Positions 1,128-26,306 of a stretch of DNA of 29,412 nucleotides are shown piece by piece. Positions within the stretch are counted from its first letter, which is position 1. Each line of letters begins with the position of its first letter. The DNA comes from a virus: positions 1 through 29,412 of the IMG/VR virus record IMGVR_UViG_3300017989_000342; one strand, 5' to 3'. The notes below the pieces were generated by a model. That model had not been told where the DNA came from, ran no database searches, and saw only the letters and a program-made list of their open reading frames with translations. The position numbers and the translations under genes were made by a program.

Positions 1128-1147
1128 GGTTTCATCAGGGAGAAATT

Positions 1148-1335: not shown

Positions 1336-1542
1336 ATGAGTATAAGGTTGAAAAAAAGTAAGAAAAACAAAACAAGTAAAATAAGCTTTAGATGTTTAGA
1401 GGAAGAAGAAAATAAACTGCAGCAGAAAGCAAATATATATACTGATGGTAATTTATCGGAGTATCTACTTTTTGCTGGTTTAAATTTTGTACCTAGTAAA
1501 GAAGACTTTGAAGAAACCAATAAAAAAGGGAGAAAGAAATGA
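1336..1542 (+). CDS. Ribbon-helix-helix/MobC-like DNA-binding protein
   Basis: A 68-residue basic protein. After a lysine-rich arm (5-16) comes ISFRCLEEEENKLQQKA, a beta strand followed by a helix, then a turn and LSEYLLFAGLNFVP. This is the arrangement seen in ribbon-helix-helix proteins and MobC-like relaxosome accessory proteins, whose strands insert into the major groove as dimers. A plausible job is autorepression of the promoter at 1099-1127 or regulation elsewhere in the phage. An AGGAGG ribosome binding site precedes the ATG, and its stop overlaps the lipoprotein start (ATGA). The family assignment is from pattern only. Confidence 0.6.
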   Translation: MSIRLKKSKKNKTSKISFRCLEEEENKLQQKANIYTDGNLSEYLLFAGLNFVPSKEDFEETNKKGRKK

Positions 1543-15934: not shown

Positions 15935-15964
15935 ATTCTATCGACGATCGAAACCTCAAGTCAA
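15935..15964 (-). promoter_or_regulatory. Sigma70-type promoter of the terminase/late operon
   Basis: On the minus strand TTGACT (15964-15959), 18-base spacer, TAGAAT (15940-15935). The start point would be near 15928, about 48 bases before the terS ATG. This is the best candidate for the promoter that opens the late operon, and it flanks the iteron-like region on the packaging side. Confidence 0.72.
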
Positions 15965-16015
15965 CTATTTATTTTTTGTTTAGACGCACAAGTAAACCTC
16001 AGATGTAAGATCGAA

Positions 16016-16320
16016 AAGTGAAAGTGACACTTTATCACTTTTTCTACTTACACTCCACTTTTTTACGGTACACGCACACATATATTTTATTTTTATGTAT
16101 TATATATATAAAACAAAATATCACTTTATAACTTCCTTAGCGGTTTTAATGACTTGACGCGGATCTGAAATATAAATAAAGTATCACCGAGTGATAAAAT
16201 TTTATCACTTTGACGCAAAACTAAGACACAATGCAAGGTAACAACTCTCCGCGCAGTCACAGTGCACCAAAACAAAAATGATTGAAGTGATACTTTTAAA
16301 AGTGACACTTTTTATCACTA
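16016..16320. repeat. Iteron-like AAGTGA/TCACTT array with AT-rich core (candidate replication origin)
   Basis: The non-coding stretch 15965-16329 holds at least seven exact AAGTGA/TCACTT hexamers: plus orientation at 16016, 16022, 16285 and 16300; minus orientation at 16035, 16121 and 16205. There are near copies at 16184, 16191 and 16315. Several pair as dyads: AAAGTGA-N7-TCACTTT (16021-16041), TATCAC-CGA-GTGATA (16182-16196) and the 18-base palindrome GTGATAAAATTTTATCAC (16191-16208). A very AT-rich tract lies between them (16081-16120). The array adjoins the 3' end of the primase-helicase gene. This is the layout of a replication origin with initiator sites and an unwinding region. A pac site or operator cluster is the alternative. 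Confidence 0.65.
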
Positions 16321-16329
16321 AATTTTTAA

Positions 16330-18873
16330 TTAAATGCTGTCAGAACTTTCGATTGACTCTCCGATCCCAGAGATATGGAACCCTTTATTGGTATTTTTTG
16401 TAGTAAAACCTGCATCATTCATGGCGTTTAAAAAGCTCATTTTTCCCATTTGATTTTTAGAATCAAGATAGGTTTGCTGCCATGTAGCAAACATTTTCCA
16501 TATTTTTGATCTTAAAATTTTCTCTTCTTTATCCAAAAATACAGAAGTGATATGACCGTCTACGTCGATAGGTTCTTCAATAATAGAATTAATAAAGCTC
16601 CAAATACAGTCATCTTTCTTTGACCATTTATCGACATTCTCTTGACTTTTAATAGTTTTTGTATATTCACCATTATTATCTACGGCCAATTTTTTAAGGC
16701 CATTCAATGCAAAAGTAAGTACACCAAGAGGATCATTATTAAATAGATCTTTAGCAATTTCGGTATTAGGTCTACCATTATATTGCTTACTAAAATTGAT
16801 AATACTGAAACGCCTTTTCATAGCACCACTATAACCTTCGCCGGTAATGGGCATCTTATTAGCGCCAAAGATATGTAGAGCAGGCAGCTTAGTATAAACA
16901 TCATCACGCTTCTTAATTTCAATTCTAACGATGTCCTGGTCATCTACTTGCTTAACAATATCATCATCAATCCTACAGTTGGTTTTGATATCGCTTACGA
17001 TATTCATAAGCTTACCAATCATAGAGGTCATATGAAATCCATGGAACTTATCAGGAGAAACACCACTGATATTTTTATCATTCTTATGGAGTTGCTTTAG
17101 TATTTTTATAGTTGTTGATTTCCCTGTAGATGTTTTACCTAGCAAAACAAAAAATTGAGGAAATTTAGGCATTAAGCTTGCGCCAAACATTTGTTGAACA
17201 AGGTCAAAACTTTCTTTATCTTCTTCTAGATACTCATATAACCAATCTTCAAAATCATCATTACGTCTAGAAGTATCATGAAGATAGTCACTATATTTTT
17301 GTTCAATAATAGTAGTACAGAAATCACTTTTGTCATGTTCTTTAAATACTAATTGATATTCGTTATTTTTATTTCTCTCTAGATGGAGAGTACCATCTAA
17401 GAAATTGGCCATATCATTTCGAGGAGCAAATAGATCGACATCCTCCGGCTTTTCAGGAACGTAAAGTGTGAACATTTTAAATACTGAATCAAGCTTTCTT
17501 ATGGAGAGTTTATTCTTATATTTAGAATTTAACTTAGTTTTTAGAATATGAATTTTAGCTTCATCCAAAAACTGCCAGTGCTTATCTTTGTAGTAAAATA
17601 GATTCACTGCATCTTGTTTAACAATTAATCCACTACTAAATGTTTCGCTATCTTCATCAAAATCAGCGCCGAATATGTTCTCCATAAGCCATCTAACGCC
17701 GATAAACTCATTATTAAGCTTAGTAGGTGACTCAGCATTTGCAGGCATATCAACAGTAGTAGGGCGCTTCTCAGGATCTAATTTTTTCCAGATGGTACAC
17801 TTAGCAGAGCAGTAAATTGATTTACATTCATCTTGACAACCAAAATTATAATTGTTATGCCGCTCATATATATTATTAATAATCGCTGTTAATTCTGATA
17901 GCGGTAAATCATTCTCAGATGCCCATGTTGACAAATCCCTTTCACATGCTTTTTGCGTTTTACCTGTACGAAAATAGTCGTTTACTATACGGAGCGCAGC
18001 ATTGTTTCGACCGATATCATCACATCTAGATTCTAGCATTTTGGTAATACATATTTTTCCATCATACTTTTCAAAAGGAGATGGTTTAACTAATGTACCT
18101 GCTTTTTCCTTTTCAATTTCGTATGACTTTCGTAGTACTTTTTCATATTCAGAAACCAAAACCTCAGAGGTTTCGTTTTCCATTTCAACATACTGCATGA
18201 AATCATAACAGTGAGGCTCTTCACATTCTTCTAGAATATTATCTAACTCTCCAAGCCTTACAACATTCTTATAAAGTCCGCTCTTTTCATGTTTAGTAAA
18301 AGGAACTCTAAATTTACGATTATAGTTATAGATAGAATCATCTAGTGTAGGGAAATCATCCTTCAAATGCTTAGCTAAATCTTTTAATTGATTTGGTAAA
18401 TGTTCATTTGCTTCTAATGGAAATAAACTAAAAGGAATCATTAAATGAAATCCTTTATTACCACTAAAAAATAAAACATATTGGTTGTTATTAAGCTTAA
18501 GCCATTTAATAAAATTATCTACATCGTAGAGAGCATCTGCAGGATCATCTGCATCGAAATCAAAGCTAACCATATTTAAAGCAGGTCTAGCTATTCCCTC
18601 ATATTGAGTAAAGGTTTTACCATTACATTTAAATTCAGGATTAGAGGGCGTTTGACCAGATAAATGATATTCATATATGGATTTGCCTTCAGTATCCTTT
18701 TTATTTGTATCCCATTCGAGTTTTAAATAATCGTTATCTAGATCGAAATAACAGCAATATGCTGTATCTCCGTTATGATTTAGAATTTTATCATACAGAT
18801 TACAGGACTTTAGGTGCCCTTGAGTTAACTTAGAATGCTTCTTGCTTAAAAAGTAATTAACGTAGTTTCTCAT
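16330..18873 (-). CDS. AEP-type primase fused to SF3 helicase
   Basis: An 847-residue replication protein. Residues about 90-215 are an archaeo-eukaryotic primase domain: the metal motif SFDFDADD (Asp105, Asp107), the nucleotide motif FSGNKGFHLMI (136-146) and NRKFRVPFTKHEKSG (185-199). A PriCT-like helical region (275-340) leads to four Cys (346, 350, 355, 359) that could bind zinc or a cluster. The D5-type SF3 helicase follows: Walker A LLGKTSTGKSTT (577-588), Walker B-like region near Asp628, sensor FGANKMP (669-675) and arginine finger MKRRF (685-689). It would initiate and unwind, probably at the adjacent iterons. The ribosome binding site is TCAGGGAAA. Confidence 0.88.
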   Translation of the reverse strand: MRNYVNYFLSKKHSKLTQGHLKSCNLYDKILNHNGDTAYCCYFDLDNDYLKLEWDTNKKDTEGKSIYEYHLSGQTPSNPEFKCNGKTFTQYEGIARPALNMVSFDFDADDPADALYDVDNFIKWLKLNNNQYVLFFSGNKGFHLMIPFSLFPLEANEHLPNQLKDLAKHLKDDFPTLDDSIYNYNRKFRVPFTKHEKSGLYKNVVRLGELDNILEECEEPHCYDFMQYVEMENETSEVLVSEYEKVLRKSYEIEKEKAGTLVKPSPFEKYDGKICITKMLESRCDDIGRNNAALRIVNDYFRTGKTQKACERDLSTWASENDLPLSELTAIINNIYERHNNYNFGCQDECKSIYCSAKCTIWKKLDPEKRPTTVDMPANAESPTKLNNEFIGVRWLMENIFGADFDEDSETFSSGLIVKQDAVNLFYYKDKHWQFLDEAKIHILKTKLNSKYKNKLSIRKLDSVFKMFTLYVPEKPEDVDLFAPRNDMANFLDGTLHLERNKNNEYQLVFKEHDKSDFCTTIIEQKYSDYLHDTSRRNDDFEDWLYEYLEEDKESFDLVQQMFGASLMPKFPQFFVLLGKTSTGKSTTIKILKQLHKNDKNISGVSPDKFHGFHMTSMIGKLMNIVSDIKTNCRIDDDIVKQVDDQDIVRIEIKKRDDVYTKLPALHIFGANKMPITGEGYSGAMKRRFSIINFSKQYNGRPNTEIAKDLFNNDPLGVLTFALNGLKKLAVDNNGEYTKTIKSQENVDKWSKKDDCIWSFINSIIEEPIDVDGHITSVFLDKEEKILRSKIWKMFATWQQTYLDSKNQMGKMSFLNAMNDAGFTTKNTNKGFHISGIGESIESSDSI

Positions 18874-18894
18874 TTAATTTCCCTGAAAAATAAT

Positions 18895-18923
18895 ATTAGA
18901 AAGCACTTTTTTTAATTTGACAA
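18895..18923 (-). promoter_or_regulatory. Leftward promoter of the primase-helicase gene
   Basis: On the minus strand TTGTCA (18923-18918), 17 bases, TCTAAT (18900-18895). Its -35 box shares bases with the -35 box of the rightward promoter at 18917-18946, so RNA polymerase cannot occupy both at once. Confidence 0.65.
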
Positions 18924-18946
18924 GGAGATTTTTTATTTCTTATAAT
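18917..18946 (+). promoter_or_regulatory. Strong rightward sigma70-type promoter of the candidate small RNA
   Basis: TTGACA at 18917-18922 and TATAAT at 18941-18946 match both consensus hexamers exactly with an 18-base spacer (TTATAA at 17 bases is the alternative -10). Transcription would start near 18952-18954. It is the closest match to consensus in the window. Confidence 0.8.
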
Positions 18947-18950
18947 TTTA

Positions 18951-18964
18951 GATACTTCGATATC
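18951..18964. promoter_or_regulatory. Operator-like dyad at the small RNA start site
   Basis: GATACTTCGATATC has GATA and TATC arms around a six-base centre, placed over the predicted transcription start. It shares the sequence GATATCG (on one strand) with the dyad in the next rightward promoter. It may be a repressor site, or a 5' hairpin of the RNA if transcription starts at its first base. Confidence 0.4.
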
Positions 18965-19029
18965 CTTTCCCTGATAAGATTGGTGATGAGAGTCCTTAGG
19001 CATCTGATTTTTCAGGTGCCTATCTTTTT
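18952..19029 (+). ncRNA. Candidate phage small RNA with anti-ribosome-binding-site segment
   Basis: A roughly 78-base transcript is defined by a consensus promoter upstream and an intrinsic terminator downstream, with no ORF of note inside. Between them lies TTTCCCTGATAA (18966-18977). Its reverse complement TTATCAGGGAAA matches the ribosome binding sites of the primase gene (11 of 12 bases, TCAGGGAAA exact), of the first early gene at 19136 (10 exact, TTATCAGGGA) and of the moron gene at 1148 (8 exact, ATCAGGGA). The architecture (possible short 5' hairpin, C-rich open segment, terminator hairpin) is that of trans-acting bacterial sRNAs. Alternatively it is an attenuated leader of the early operon. 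Sequence elements are seen; expression and targets are inferred. Confidence 0.6.
18997..19029 (+). terminator. Rho-independent terminator of the candidate small RNA
   Basis: AGGCATCTGA (18998-19007), loop TTTT, TCAGGTGCCT (19012-19021), with one G-U pair and one more closing A-T pair, then TCTTTTT (19023-19029). A clean 10-11 bp hairpin plus T tract on the plus strand, 45 bases after the predicted start. Confidence 0.85.
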
Positions 19030-19072: not shown

Positions 19073-19101
19073 TTGACGATATCGCTTGGATATCTTTTAA
19101 T
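19073..19101 (+). promoter_or_regulatory. Rightward promoter of the early operon
   Basis: TTGACG at 19073-19078, 17 bases, TTTAAT at 19096-19101. It lies after the small RNA terminator and 35 bases before the first early ATG, so the operon can be transcribed independently of the small RNA. Another TTGACA at 19058-19063 has no matching -10 box. Confidence 0.65.
19078..19094. promoter_or_regulatory. GATATC dyad filling the spacer of the early promoter
   Basis: Two GATATC hexamers (19078-19083 and 19089-19094) are separated by five bases and occupy almost exactly the spacer between the -35 and -10 boxes of the early promoter. A protein bound here would block RNA polymerase. This is a candidate operator for an early gene repressor that is not identified in the window. 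Confidence 0.5.
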
Positions 19102-19135
19102 AGGTTTTCAAAATTAATTATCAGGGAGAAATAAA

Positions 19136-19438
19136 ATGAATGAACAAGAAATAATTATAAAAGATTTAAAATCAAAAATTGAAATTGCTAATCTTAAAAT
19201 AGCAGAGCTAAATCAAAAAAATCAAATTATGAATCAAGCCTTAAAAAGCGAATCAGAAGAATTAATGAAACTAAGAAAAGAAAGGAAATCATTAATAGAA
19301 TCTGCTGATAGAGAAATTAACCAACTAAGAGGAGATATAAAACTTCTAGAAGACGACAACAAAGCTATATCAGAACATAATATTGCATTGGAAAATAAAA
19401 TAAGAGTACTTAAAAAAGCTATGAAGGAGTTATTATAA
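19136..19438 (+). CDS. Coiled-coil protein, first gene of the early operon
   Basis: A 100-residue protein predicted to be coiled coil over nearly its whole length (I/L heptads with K, E, N; for example IIIKDLKSKIEIANLKIAEL and QLRGDIKLLEDDNKAI). The ribosome binding site GGGAG lies in the block ATCAGGGAGAAAT shared with the moron gene and complementary to the candidate small RNA. First position behind the early promoter suggests early, abundant synthesis. No family recognised; it could be a scaffold for early complexes or a host takeover factor, but nothing shows this directly. Confidence 0.65.
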   Translation: MNEQEIIIKDLKSKIEIANLKIAELNQKNQIMNQALKSESEELMKLRKERKSLIESADREINQLRGDIKLLEDDNKAISEHNIALENKIRVLKKAMKELL

Positions 19439-22493: not shown

Positions 22494-23990
22494 ATGACCA
22501 TTACACTAAGGGATTATCAAATTGAAGCACATGAAGGGATGATTAAGCATTTTAAGCTTAATCAGAAAGTGCTTCTTTGGGTTATGGCCGGTGGAGGTAA
22601 ATCAATTACTGCAGGATCATTTATAGCTAAATATCATCAATTTTATAAATTTGTTTTAATAGTTAGAAAAAGGAATTTAGTAGAGCAGTTAGCAGAAGAT
22701 GCCCTTGATACTTTTGATTTAGATTATTCAATCTTTATGGCCGGACATGAGAAAATGGATTTAAATAAATCTATTCAAGTCTGTTCAAAAGATACAATGG
22801 ATGCCAGGGATTATTTACCTTTTGAGGGAGAAGATAATGTTGTTGTAATGGTTGATGAATGTGATGAATTTCCTGATTATCAAAAAGAAATTATTGAGAG
22901 ATATTCTGCTAGTAGCAGATTTTTTTATTTTGGAATGACTGCAACGCCTTTTAATGGTCTAGATCACTTCGATGTAGTATTAAACCCCATAAGCGCTAGA
23001 GGATTATTGAAAAAGGGAATTCTAGTGCCTTTTGATTATATAATACCAAAGCAGTTAAATTTTAAAGATGTGGAAGTAGTTGACGGTGCTTTTAAAACAA
23101 CTGATATAATTAGAAAATTAGACCATCCAAAGGCCATTGCTGAGAGCTTTGAGTCATGGTTATGTTTCGGAGATAATCGCCAAACACTGATATTTTGTAT
23201 TAATAAAGAGCATTCAAAAAGAGTTGTCGAATATATTAATAATTACTATGGAAAAGAAATGGCGATCCATTGTGATGCTGATACTCCAAAAGAGGAAAGA
23301 AAAAGTGCTATTGATAAATTTCGTAGAGGTACTATTAGGTTTTTATCTAATATCCGCCTTTTTACTCGTGGAACTAATATCGTGGAAATAGGATGTATAT
23401 GGGATAATGCTTGCACATTATCACTAAACAATCACATACAAAAACTAGGAAGAGGATCTAGAAAAAATCCAATTTATAATAATTGTATTCTTATAGATGT
23501 AGCGAATAATCTCTTGAATAATGGGCATTTTTATCAAGAGAGAACTGTTGACCTAAAAAATAGTTACAAGAAAACTAAAACAGCCCTTGAGGTTCAACAG
23601 ATGAGAGTGTGTGAGTCGTGTTTTAGGGCAGCGGAACCTCAAGAATTTGGGGTTCATAATTGCTGCCCTTTTTGTGGATTTAAAAATAAACCCATAAAAA
23701 AGAAGAAGTTATCTGATTATGCTAAGAAAAAAATGTTTATGGAGACGGCTACTGAGGAGCAAATAGAGCAGAGAAATATGATAAATGAGTTTAAAAAGCT
23801 CTTGTGGAAGAAGATAAATTTAGGTAAAAGATATCCAAAGGATATCGCAAGAGAATATGCTCAGATGGATATGTTGAAAAAATATGGGATTGAAAAAGTA
23901 TTAAAAATAAGAAAATCAATTGGTTTAAAACAAGAGATTATTGATAAATATAAAAGACGTTATGAATATATACCATTAAACGGATTATAA
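22494..23990 (+). CDS. SF2 DNA helicase (DEAH/UvsW-like) with C-terminal zinc ribbon
   Basis: A 498-residue ATP-dependent helicase. Motifs in order: Q-motif region LRDYQIEA (5-12), Walker A MAGGGKSITA (31-40), DECD box (121-124), TATP (149-152), and in the second RecA fold LIFCINKEHS (232-241), LFTRGTNI (289-296) and motif VI LGRGSR (318-323). A zinc ribbon lies at 373-394 (CESC and CPFC), and a basic helical tail ends the protein. UvsW and RecG-like enzymes remodel forks and recombination intermediates, which fits the position beside a VRR-NUC nuclease and a DNA polymerase. The exact substrate is inferred. Confidence 0.85.
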   Translation: MTITLRDYQIEAHEGMIKHFKLNQKVLLWVMAGGGKSITAGSFIAKYHQFYKFVLIVRKRNLVEQLAEDALDTFDLDYSIFMAGHEKMDLNKSIQVCSKDTMDARDYLPFEGEDNVVVMVDECDEFPDYQKEIIERYSASSRFFYFGMTATPFNGLDHFDVVLNPISARGLLKKGILVPFDYIIPKQLNFKDVEVVDGAFKTTDIIRKLDHPKAIAESFESWLCFGDNRQTLIFCINKEHSKRVVEYINNYYGKEMAIHCDADTPKEERKSAIDKFRRGTIRFLSNIRLFTRGTNIVEIGCIWDNACTLSLNNHIQKLGRGSRKNPIYNNCILIDVANNLLNNGHFYQERTVDLKNSYKKTKTALEVQQMRVCESCFRAAEPQEFGVHNCCPFCGFKNKPIKKKKLSDYAKKKMFMETATEEQIEQRNMINEFKKLLWKKINLGKRYPKDIAREYAQMDMLKKYGIEKVLKIRKSIGLKQEIIDKYKRRYEYIPLNGL

Positions 23991-25233: not shown

Positions 25234-26094
25234 ATGGCAAAAAAACAAAGTAAAGAAGTTGCATTAAAAGAGGCAACATTAAGTTCAACTGCTATGGCAA
25301 AATTTGCTAATTATACTGATAAGGAAATGGCAGCTTTCAATGATATATCTTTGGATGTAGCAGATAATAATGAGTTGTTTCAAAATGATATTTTGATTCC
25401 TAAAGTATGGTTGATTCAGGCCATGAGTGAGCTTAGAAAACAAAAGAAAGCAGATGAAGGAGATTTTGTTGATTCTCAAACTGCTGAAATCTTAGCTTCT
25501 GAAGGCGAAACTCTTCAATTTGTTGTGCTTAAAACATTTAAAAGATGGCATACCTTTAAGCTTGTAGCTAATGATAAAAAAGAATTTGTATCAAGTGAAA
25601 TTATGGTATTCGGTAAAAATCATGATCTTCCTTATGAAGAGACTGTAGAGGGCGATAAACTTGTTAGAAGACAAGTAATTAGTGCTTATGTCCTTTTAGA
25701 AAAAGATGCTGTATTAGGTGTTAATAAGCCTTATATTATTGATTTCGCTAGTTCATCTAAAAGAGCAGGCAGAATGCTTATATCAGATATTAAAACGCTC
25801 AATACGCCGACTCCTGATCGCCCAGGTCTACCTTGTTTTGTAGGTTACTTTAAAATGACTGCAAACGAAGAGAACTTTTCTGAAGGTTCTGCTTATGTTA
25901 AACATGTACAATTTGGTGGATATTTACCTAAAACATCTATGCCATTTTTAGCAGATTGTAGAAGACAACTAGATGTAATGGAGTCACAAATTGAAATTGA
26001 TGATTCTGATGTTATCGAGTCAACTTCGGCAACTAAAAAGAAAACTAGTACTAAAGTAGGTAAAAAAGCTGATTCAACTGAAGCGAGGATATAA
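25234..26094 (+). CDS. Replication-module protein, possibly ssDNA-binding
   Basis: A 286-residue protein. I start at the ATG at 25234 (AGGAG 8 bases ahead), not at an in-frame codon 30 bases upstream. The central region is beta-rich: LIPKVWLIQAMSELRKQKKA, then LQFVVLKTFKRWHTFKLV, VISAYVLLEKDAV, PYIIDFASSS and YFKMTANEENFSEG. A polar, lysine- and serine-rich tail (about 255-286) follows. Proteins with this layout often lie just before the family A polymerase in phages, and an OB-fold ssDNA-binding role has been proposed for similar ones. There is no acidic C-terminal tail as in T7 gp2.5, so the call stays tentative. Confidence 0.45.
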   Translation: MAKKQSKEVALKEATLSSTAMAKFANYTDKEMAAFNDISLDVADNNELFQNDILIPKVWLIQAMSELRKQKKADEGDFVDSQTAEILASEGETLQFVVLKTFKRWHTFKLVANDKKEFVSSEIMVFGKNHDLPYEETVEGDKLVRRQVISAYVLLEKDAVLGVNKPYIIDFASSSKRAGRMLISDIKTLNTPTPDRPGLPCFVGYFKMTANEENFSEGSAYVKHVQFGGYLPKTSMPFLADCRRQLDVMESQIEIDDSDVIESTSATKKKTSTKVGKKADSTEARI

Positions 26095-26306
26095 TGCGAA
26101 GAGGAGCTAGAATTAACATTCCTAAAGAAAAAACTCGTAAAGCACTCTATGCTAAAAAATGTGATGTAAAAATAATAGAAAAAATTGACAATATCACAGA
26201 AAAAACAGGCGTAGCAAAATGGGTTGTGATAGAGAGTATTTTAGCTACTTCTTTAGGAATTAAAACAAACAACAAACTAGATTTGAAAAAATGGCTAAAA
26301 ATTTAA
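26094..26306 (+). CDS. Small RHH/HTH-like protein
   Basis: A 70-residue very basic protein starting on the last base of the previous stop (TAATG). The N-terminal half is lysine/arginine-rich (RRGARINIPKEKTRKALYAK). The rest (VKIIEKIDNITEKTGVAKWV, VIESILATSLGI) has the spacing of a ribbon-helix-helix or small helix-turn-helix protein: a helix, a G-x-x-K turn and a second hydrophobic helix. It would bind DNA, possibly as repressor or as polymerase partner. The 3' end overlaps the polymerase start by 16 bases. No family recognised with confidence. Confidence 0.5.
   Translation: MRRGARINIPKEKTRKALYAKKCDVKIIEKIDNITEKTGVAKWVVIESILATSLGIKTNNKLDLKKWLKI

Follow-up and report, generated by a model that had tools for sequence, protein, structure and literature searches.

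Which product is encoded in the 262-base divergent region of this phage, and on which genes would it act? The window, i.e. the whole stretch of 29,412 bases analysed here, is an IMG/VR virus record with a GC content of 32%. Its genes code for a Mu-type portal, gpT head proteins, a PriCT_1/DUF5906 primase-helicase, a helicase, a family A DNA polymerase and a terminase. They are organized in a leftward block, in which the primase gene comes first and is followed by terminase, head and packaging genes, and a rightward block of early and replication genes starting from 19136. The divergent region separates these two blocks and contains the locus of a predicted small RNA. Another gap of about 395 bases, between the primase and small terminase genes (15935-16329), possesses repeated GTGATAAA / AAGTGTCACTTT motifs and is perhaps a late promoter or origin region.

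Promoter, body and terminator of the predicted RNA

The sequence-only reading had proposed an exact-consensus promoter, an intrinsic terminator and a short body without ORF between them, and all of these elements were located in the divergent region (Table 1). No convincing ORF was found in the small RNA. The only ATG frame noted in it has 18 codons, is without SD, crosses the terminator and is not conserved. The genomes were scanned for promoter-terminator units, defined as a promoter matching at least 10 of 12 consensus positions plus a terminator. The window and its diverged relative described below have exactly one unit each, at orthologous positions. Shuffled genomes showed weaker units with a mean of 0.3 for the window and 0.75 for the relative, and the observed unit strength was reached in none of the 60 shuffles of either genome. 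Analysis of the small RNA against Rfam families gave no match at the gathering threshold; isrK and Ref66 were rejected as its identity, as both were sub-threshold and far below the gathering scores.

Table 1. Features of the predicted RNA locus, its flanking genes and its candidate targets. Positions are those of the window except where L012 is given.
Feature	Position	Strand	Remarks
Small RNA promoter	18917-18946	+	TTGACA-18-TATAAT, 12/12 consensus
Small RNA body (predicted)	18953-19029	+	about 77 nt; ends estimated from the -10 box (5') and the terminator (3')
5' imperfect hairpin	18954-18993	+	CCCUGAUA exposed in the apical loop
RNA pairing segment	18966-18977	+	UUUCCCUGAUAA (= TTTCCCTGATAA); 12 contiguous pairs with early leader, 9 with primase leader
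Intrinsic terminator	18997-19022	+	stem-loop of 11 pairs, then TCTTTTT
Primase promoter (putative)	18895-18923	-	TTGTCA-17-TCTAAT, 10/12; -35 box overlaps that of the RNA promoter
Early promoter (putative)	19073-19101	+	TTGACG-17-TTTAAT, 10/12
Tandem palindromes	19078-19094		GATATC-N5-GATATC, between early promoter -35 and -10
Primase/helicase gene	16330-18873	-	PriCT_1, DUF5906; first gene of leftward block
First early gene	19136-19438	+	putative protein of 100 aa, coiled-coil-like
Candidate target, first early gene SD region	19118-19129	+	UUAUCAGGGAGA
Candidate target, primase SD region	18878-18886	-	UCAGGGAAA; block TCAGGGAAA
Weak third candidate target, SD region of 59-aa gene at 1148	1134-1143	+	AUCAGGGAGA
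RNA promoter of the diverged relative	L012:2020-2048		TTGACA-17-TACAAT, 11/12

Conservation of the locus in a diverged relative

Terminase and primase searches identified only one diverged relative which covers the region, IMGVR_UViG_3300033149_005420 (39,553 bases, hereafter G004). The primases of the two phages show 59% amino acid identity in the aligned N-terminal part. The primase gene of G004 is split across both contig ends, which probably makes the contig a complete genome in circularly permuted form. The order of elements in the divergent region of G004 (L012:1964-2239) is the same as in the window: a minus-strand primase promoter, the RNA promoter overlapping it at the -35 box, the RNA body, the terminator hairpin and the early promoter. 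The terminator hairpin of G004 is situated at the equivalent position with a different sequence, and its putative early promoter is TTGACG-17-CATTAT (9/12). The first early genes of the window and G004 are not homologous.

The window and G004 represent the only two independent loci with the RNA unit in the collections searched. A sibling contig, IMGVR 3300017987_000428, was 99.99% identical to the window and so uninformative as a second locus. The DNA search of 50,697 phage records gave no match, and the terminase profile search of genome contigs revealed neither host nor prophage. Pattern matches in L014, L016 and L069 were inside coding regions and were rejected as chance. Other Mu-like relatives also possess the head genes, but they have different replication modules or their contigs end before the region, and the unit scan found no promoter-UCCC-terminator unit in them. 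In L026 (6298-6420) and L027 (6068-6196), a TTGACA-18-TAAAAT promoter and, after it, a terminator hairpin are situated directly 5' of a small ORF, which is similar in sequence in both phages. These attenuator-like leaders were rejected as counterparts, as they directly precede another gene and are without the CCCTGA segment.

A lysogeny switch had been suggested as one role of the RNA. No tyrosine integrase, serine recombinase or ParA gene (PF00589, PF00239, PF13614) was found in the window, which is an incomplete genome, in the apparently complete G004 or in three further relatives. This suggestion is therefore unsupported.

Conserved fold of the RNA

Both RNAs are composed of a 5' hairpin followed by a strong terminator hairpin, with an MFE of -24.0 kcal/mol (z -3.7) in the window and -31.5 kcal/mol (z -4.3) in G004. 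On folding, the loop bases of the window hairpin were unpaired with a probability of 0.9-1.0. The apical loop of G004 holds UUCCCU, and an unpaired UCCC/CCCU motif in the hairpin loop is present in both phages. UUCCCUGA is identical in the two phages, and no invariant stretch of the body is longer. The stem sequences differ between the phages while the two-hairpin layout is kept, which along with the invariant UUCCCUGA argues for a function at the RNA level. That the locus is a short, conserved RNA gene whose loop is complementary to SD sites is well supported, also by the covariation with the first early leader described below.

Complementarity of the RNA to gene starts

The segment at 18966-18977 had been described as complementary to blocks at three gene starts and at none of the others checked. 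All three blocks were found: TTATCAGGGA at 19118-19127 in front of the first early gene, TCAGGGAAA in front of the primase gene and ATCAGGGA at 1134-1141 at the start of gene 1148 ('moron'). TCAGGG is present at no further listed gene start in the window, and in G004 it occurs at gene starts only at the flanking genes. As candidate targets, the three sites are of different standing.

The leader of the first early gene is the solid predicted target. In the window it forms 12 contiguous pairs with the RNA (UUUCCCUGAUAA with UUAUCAGGGAGA), and the G004 leader forms 13 (UUUCUUCCCUGAA with UUCAGGGGAGAAA). When the partners were swapped between the phages, the contiguous pairs fell to 9 and 8. The native pairings were better than the swapped ones by 10.4 kcal/mol in all (cognate minus cross -10.4), an advantage matched by none of 3000 simulated leaders, which were generated by random mutation outside the AGGG core. 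The early leader also stood out against dinucleotide-shuffled RNA bodies (P = 0.001 in the window and 0.0005 in G004). It ranked first among 49 window leaders by raw energy and showed a net energy after opening of -11.6 in the window and -10.2 in G004. Since the two first early genes lack homology, what travels with the RNA is the leader.

The primase leader is a plausible target. Its complementarity is kept in both phages, with 9 pairs in the window and 11 in G004, though a 9-pair run is uninformative for the window primase as it was reached by 22% of mock windows with G-U allowed. Native and swapped pairings were equally good (difference -0.1, P 0.12) and gave no covariation signal, so only conservation of the core can be claimed here. 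Against dinucleotide-shuffled RNA bodies, P was 0.0185 in the window and 0.001 in G004. The leader ranked 4 of 49 and 7 of 55 by raw energy, with net energies after opening of -7.5 and -6.9, respectively. Taken jointly, the early and primase leaders gave P 0.0005 against shuffled RNAs in the window; in G004, none of 2000 shuffled RNAs did as well.

The leader of gene 1148 is a weak third candidate. It ranked 5 of 49 by raw energy in the window, and the corresponding start in G004 is without the TCAGGG block, pairs through GGGAAGAAAG and ranked 5 of 55. The sequence-only reading had set the covariation of seed and targets in related phages as one of its tests; this was borne out for the first early leader and gave no signal for the primase leader, and the 1148 block is not kept in G004. 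The window leaders 1336 and 2934 score nearly as well by energy. Raw energy favours purine-rich SD sites generally, and for this reason only the early leader is called solid. The leader of the DNA polymerase A gene of G004, GGGAAGAAAGGC (gene start L012 12165), is exactly complementary over 12 bases to the RNA segment GCCTTTCTTCCC; at -27.4 it is the best of 55 leaders, and this match is not present in the window.

Proposed action and alternative explanations

We consider it likely, on balance, that the locus encodes a UCCC-loop antisense RNA which, resembling the P1 C4 RNA in function, brakes translation of the early operon and, probably, of primase. Host RNA polymerase would transcribe the RNA of about 77 nt from the consensus promoter wedged between the gene blocks. 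The CCCU/UCCC loop of the 5' hairpin would then initiate pairing at SD sites, with 12-13 pairs at the first early gene and, probably, 9-11 at primase. The paired RNA would block ribosome entry, and early and replication expression would be braked. Since each genome copy would yield the RNA from its consensus promoter, the likeliest role of the RNA appears to be a dosage-dependent brake or an early shut-off. A more specific form of the proposal is offered tentatively. Here, a single RNA, transcribed between divergent operons from a promoter which overlaps that of primase, would repress the first gene of both at the SD and act as a copy-number-coupled brake balancing primase and early output.

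In the read-through RNA of both phages, the RNA segment and the early SD pair in cis with a probability of 1.0. Covariation alone therefore does not separate cis from trans, and we infer the action in trans. In a cis-acting leader, the main alternative, the read-through UUUCCCUGAUAA would fold onto UUAUCAGGGAGA, hide the early SD and insulate early translation from the 18917 promoter, while most transcripts would stop at the terminator and the short RNA would be only an attenuated by-product. The covariation of the early leader is equally expected from such a leader, which also fits the gene order and strand, and the promoter-terminator leaders of related phages directly precede another gene. 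However, the early operon has its own conserved, putative promoter with an operator, the terminator is strong, and a consensus promoter yielding only waste is improbable in itself. Nor would such a leader explain why the divergent primase SD is complementary to the RNA in both phages. A cis-acting leader is unlikely on this evidence, and both the match to the primase SD and the early operon's own promoter speak for action in trans.

An RNA which is real and acts elsewhere, on host mRNAs or at a transcript-dependent replication origin, would have its SD matches as a by-product of a C/U-rich loop. The energies of the 1336, 2934 and G004 DNA polymerase A leaders, nearly as good or best, are in line with this, but the covariation with the adjacent early leader and the confinement of gene-start TCAGGG to the flanking genes in G004 make it quite improbable. 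The repeated block could instead be the DNA operator of a transcription regulator with one copy at each of three places, as three TCAGGG copies in both orientations are found within 262 bp of a divergent promoter region. We give very little credence to this explanation, because the block is always at SD distance from the ATG at both genes, the changes between the phages are compensatory for RNA pairing, and GATATC-N5-GATATC is a better operator candidate. The kept RNA fold and the leader-RNA differences, which fit G-U wobbles, also speak against it. A chance origin, in which promoter-like and terminator-like sequences match by coincidence and yield no transcript, could be expected in an AT-rich genome; the unique orthologous units in two diverged phages, with none as strong in 120 shuffled genomes, leave chance barely credible.

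Comparison with known regulatory RNAs

The proposed trans-acting antisense RNA shares individual features with several known systems, which are its closest counterparts in function. The C4 RNA of P1/P7 binds by base pairing at the RBS of icd, upstream of ant, and is likewise a short phage antisense RNA encoded beside its targets. By a title cited in PMC8546580, the P1 C4 RNA is 77 bases long; it acts in trans on gene products of the phage itself. C4 is processed from the transcript of its target and serves immunity, whereas the RNA described here has its own promoter and terminator and faces the primase operon too, in phages where no lysogeny genes were found. An origin of the C4 type, from the target operon transcript, is not indicated, as the RNA and the early operon have separate promoters (the early one putative). 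The P4 CI RNA is also a phage antisense RNA, directed at the replication genes of P4 itself (PMC4825925). It acts by premature transcription termination through seqA and seqC, whereas this RNA would pair at SD sites behind separate promoters. Flanking complementary sites in one transcript, as in P4 CI, are also absent, the sites being on opposite strands with separate promoters.

Pairing of accessible UCCC loop motifs with SD sites is an established hallmark of RNAs which repress translation (PMC3861533). The Gram-positive UCCC-loop sRNAs (Rsa family, RNAIII, LhrC) have, like this RNA, an accessible UCCC hairpin loop complementary to the SD. They are host regulators with many targets, whereas this RNA is phage-encoded, is situated between its apparent targets and has no Rfam match. 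Lambda OOP and P22 sar are short phage RNAs acting on the developmental genes of their own phage, as proposed here, and OOP lies near replication genes and is of similar length to this RNA. Both are cis-antisense and fully complementary to one target, whereas the complementarity of this RNA is short and covers two separate leaders. P22 sar blocks translation initiation of ant (PMC12197685). None of these RNAs, i.e. C4, P4 CI, OOP, sar and the UCCC-loop sRNAs, fits by sequence (Rfam) or by all defining features. The predicted arrangement of one RNA between divergent operons, complementary to the first-gene SD of each, is unmatched among the known phage antisense RNAs considered.

The locus appears to add a new case to the phages which restrain their own early genes through a small RNA. 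To our knowledge, only a small number of phage-encoded small RNAs have defined targets in the phage, most of them in temperate phages that have been studied well. The candidate described here belongs to a group of uncultivated phages in which no integration genes were detected, and has covariation evidence for its main target. It would place an RNA brake at the divergent promoter region which launches DNA replication, in a simple layout of one loop and two flanking SD sites. If true, post-transcriptional self-control of early genes would not be limited to lysogeny circuits.

Candidate operator of the early promoter

The tandem palindromes GATATC-N5-GATATC at the early promoter are likely a repressor operator. 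A second copy is present inside the helicase gene at a homologous place in both phages (window 23830-23846, L012 8925-8941), and this intragenic copy is a likely auxiliary operator. In G004, where the copies are at L012 2187-2203 and 8925-8941, the second half is GATATT at both sites. Two pairs of small conserved proteins are candidates for the protein which binds this putative operator. One pair (window 26094-26306 and L012 11944-12147) is ribbon-helix-helix-like by eye with no significant Pfam match, and the other (window 1336-1542 and L013 8280-8480) is weakly NikA-like.
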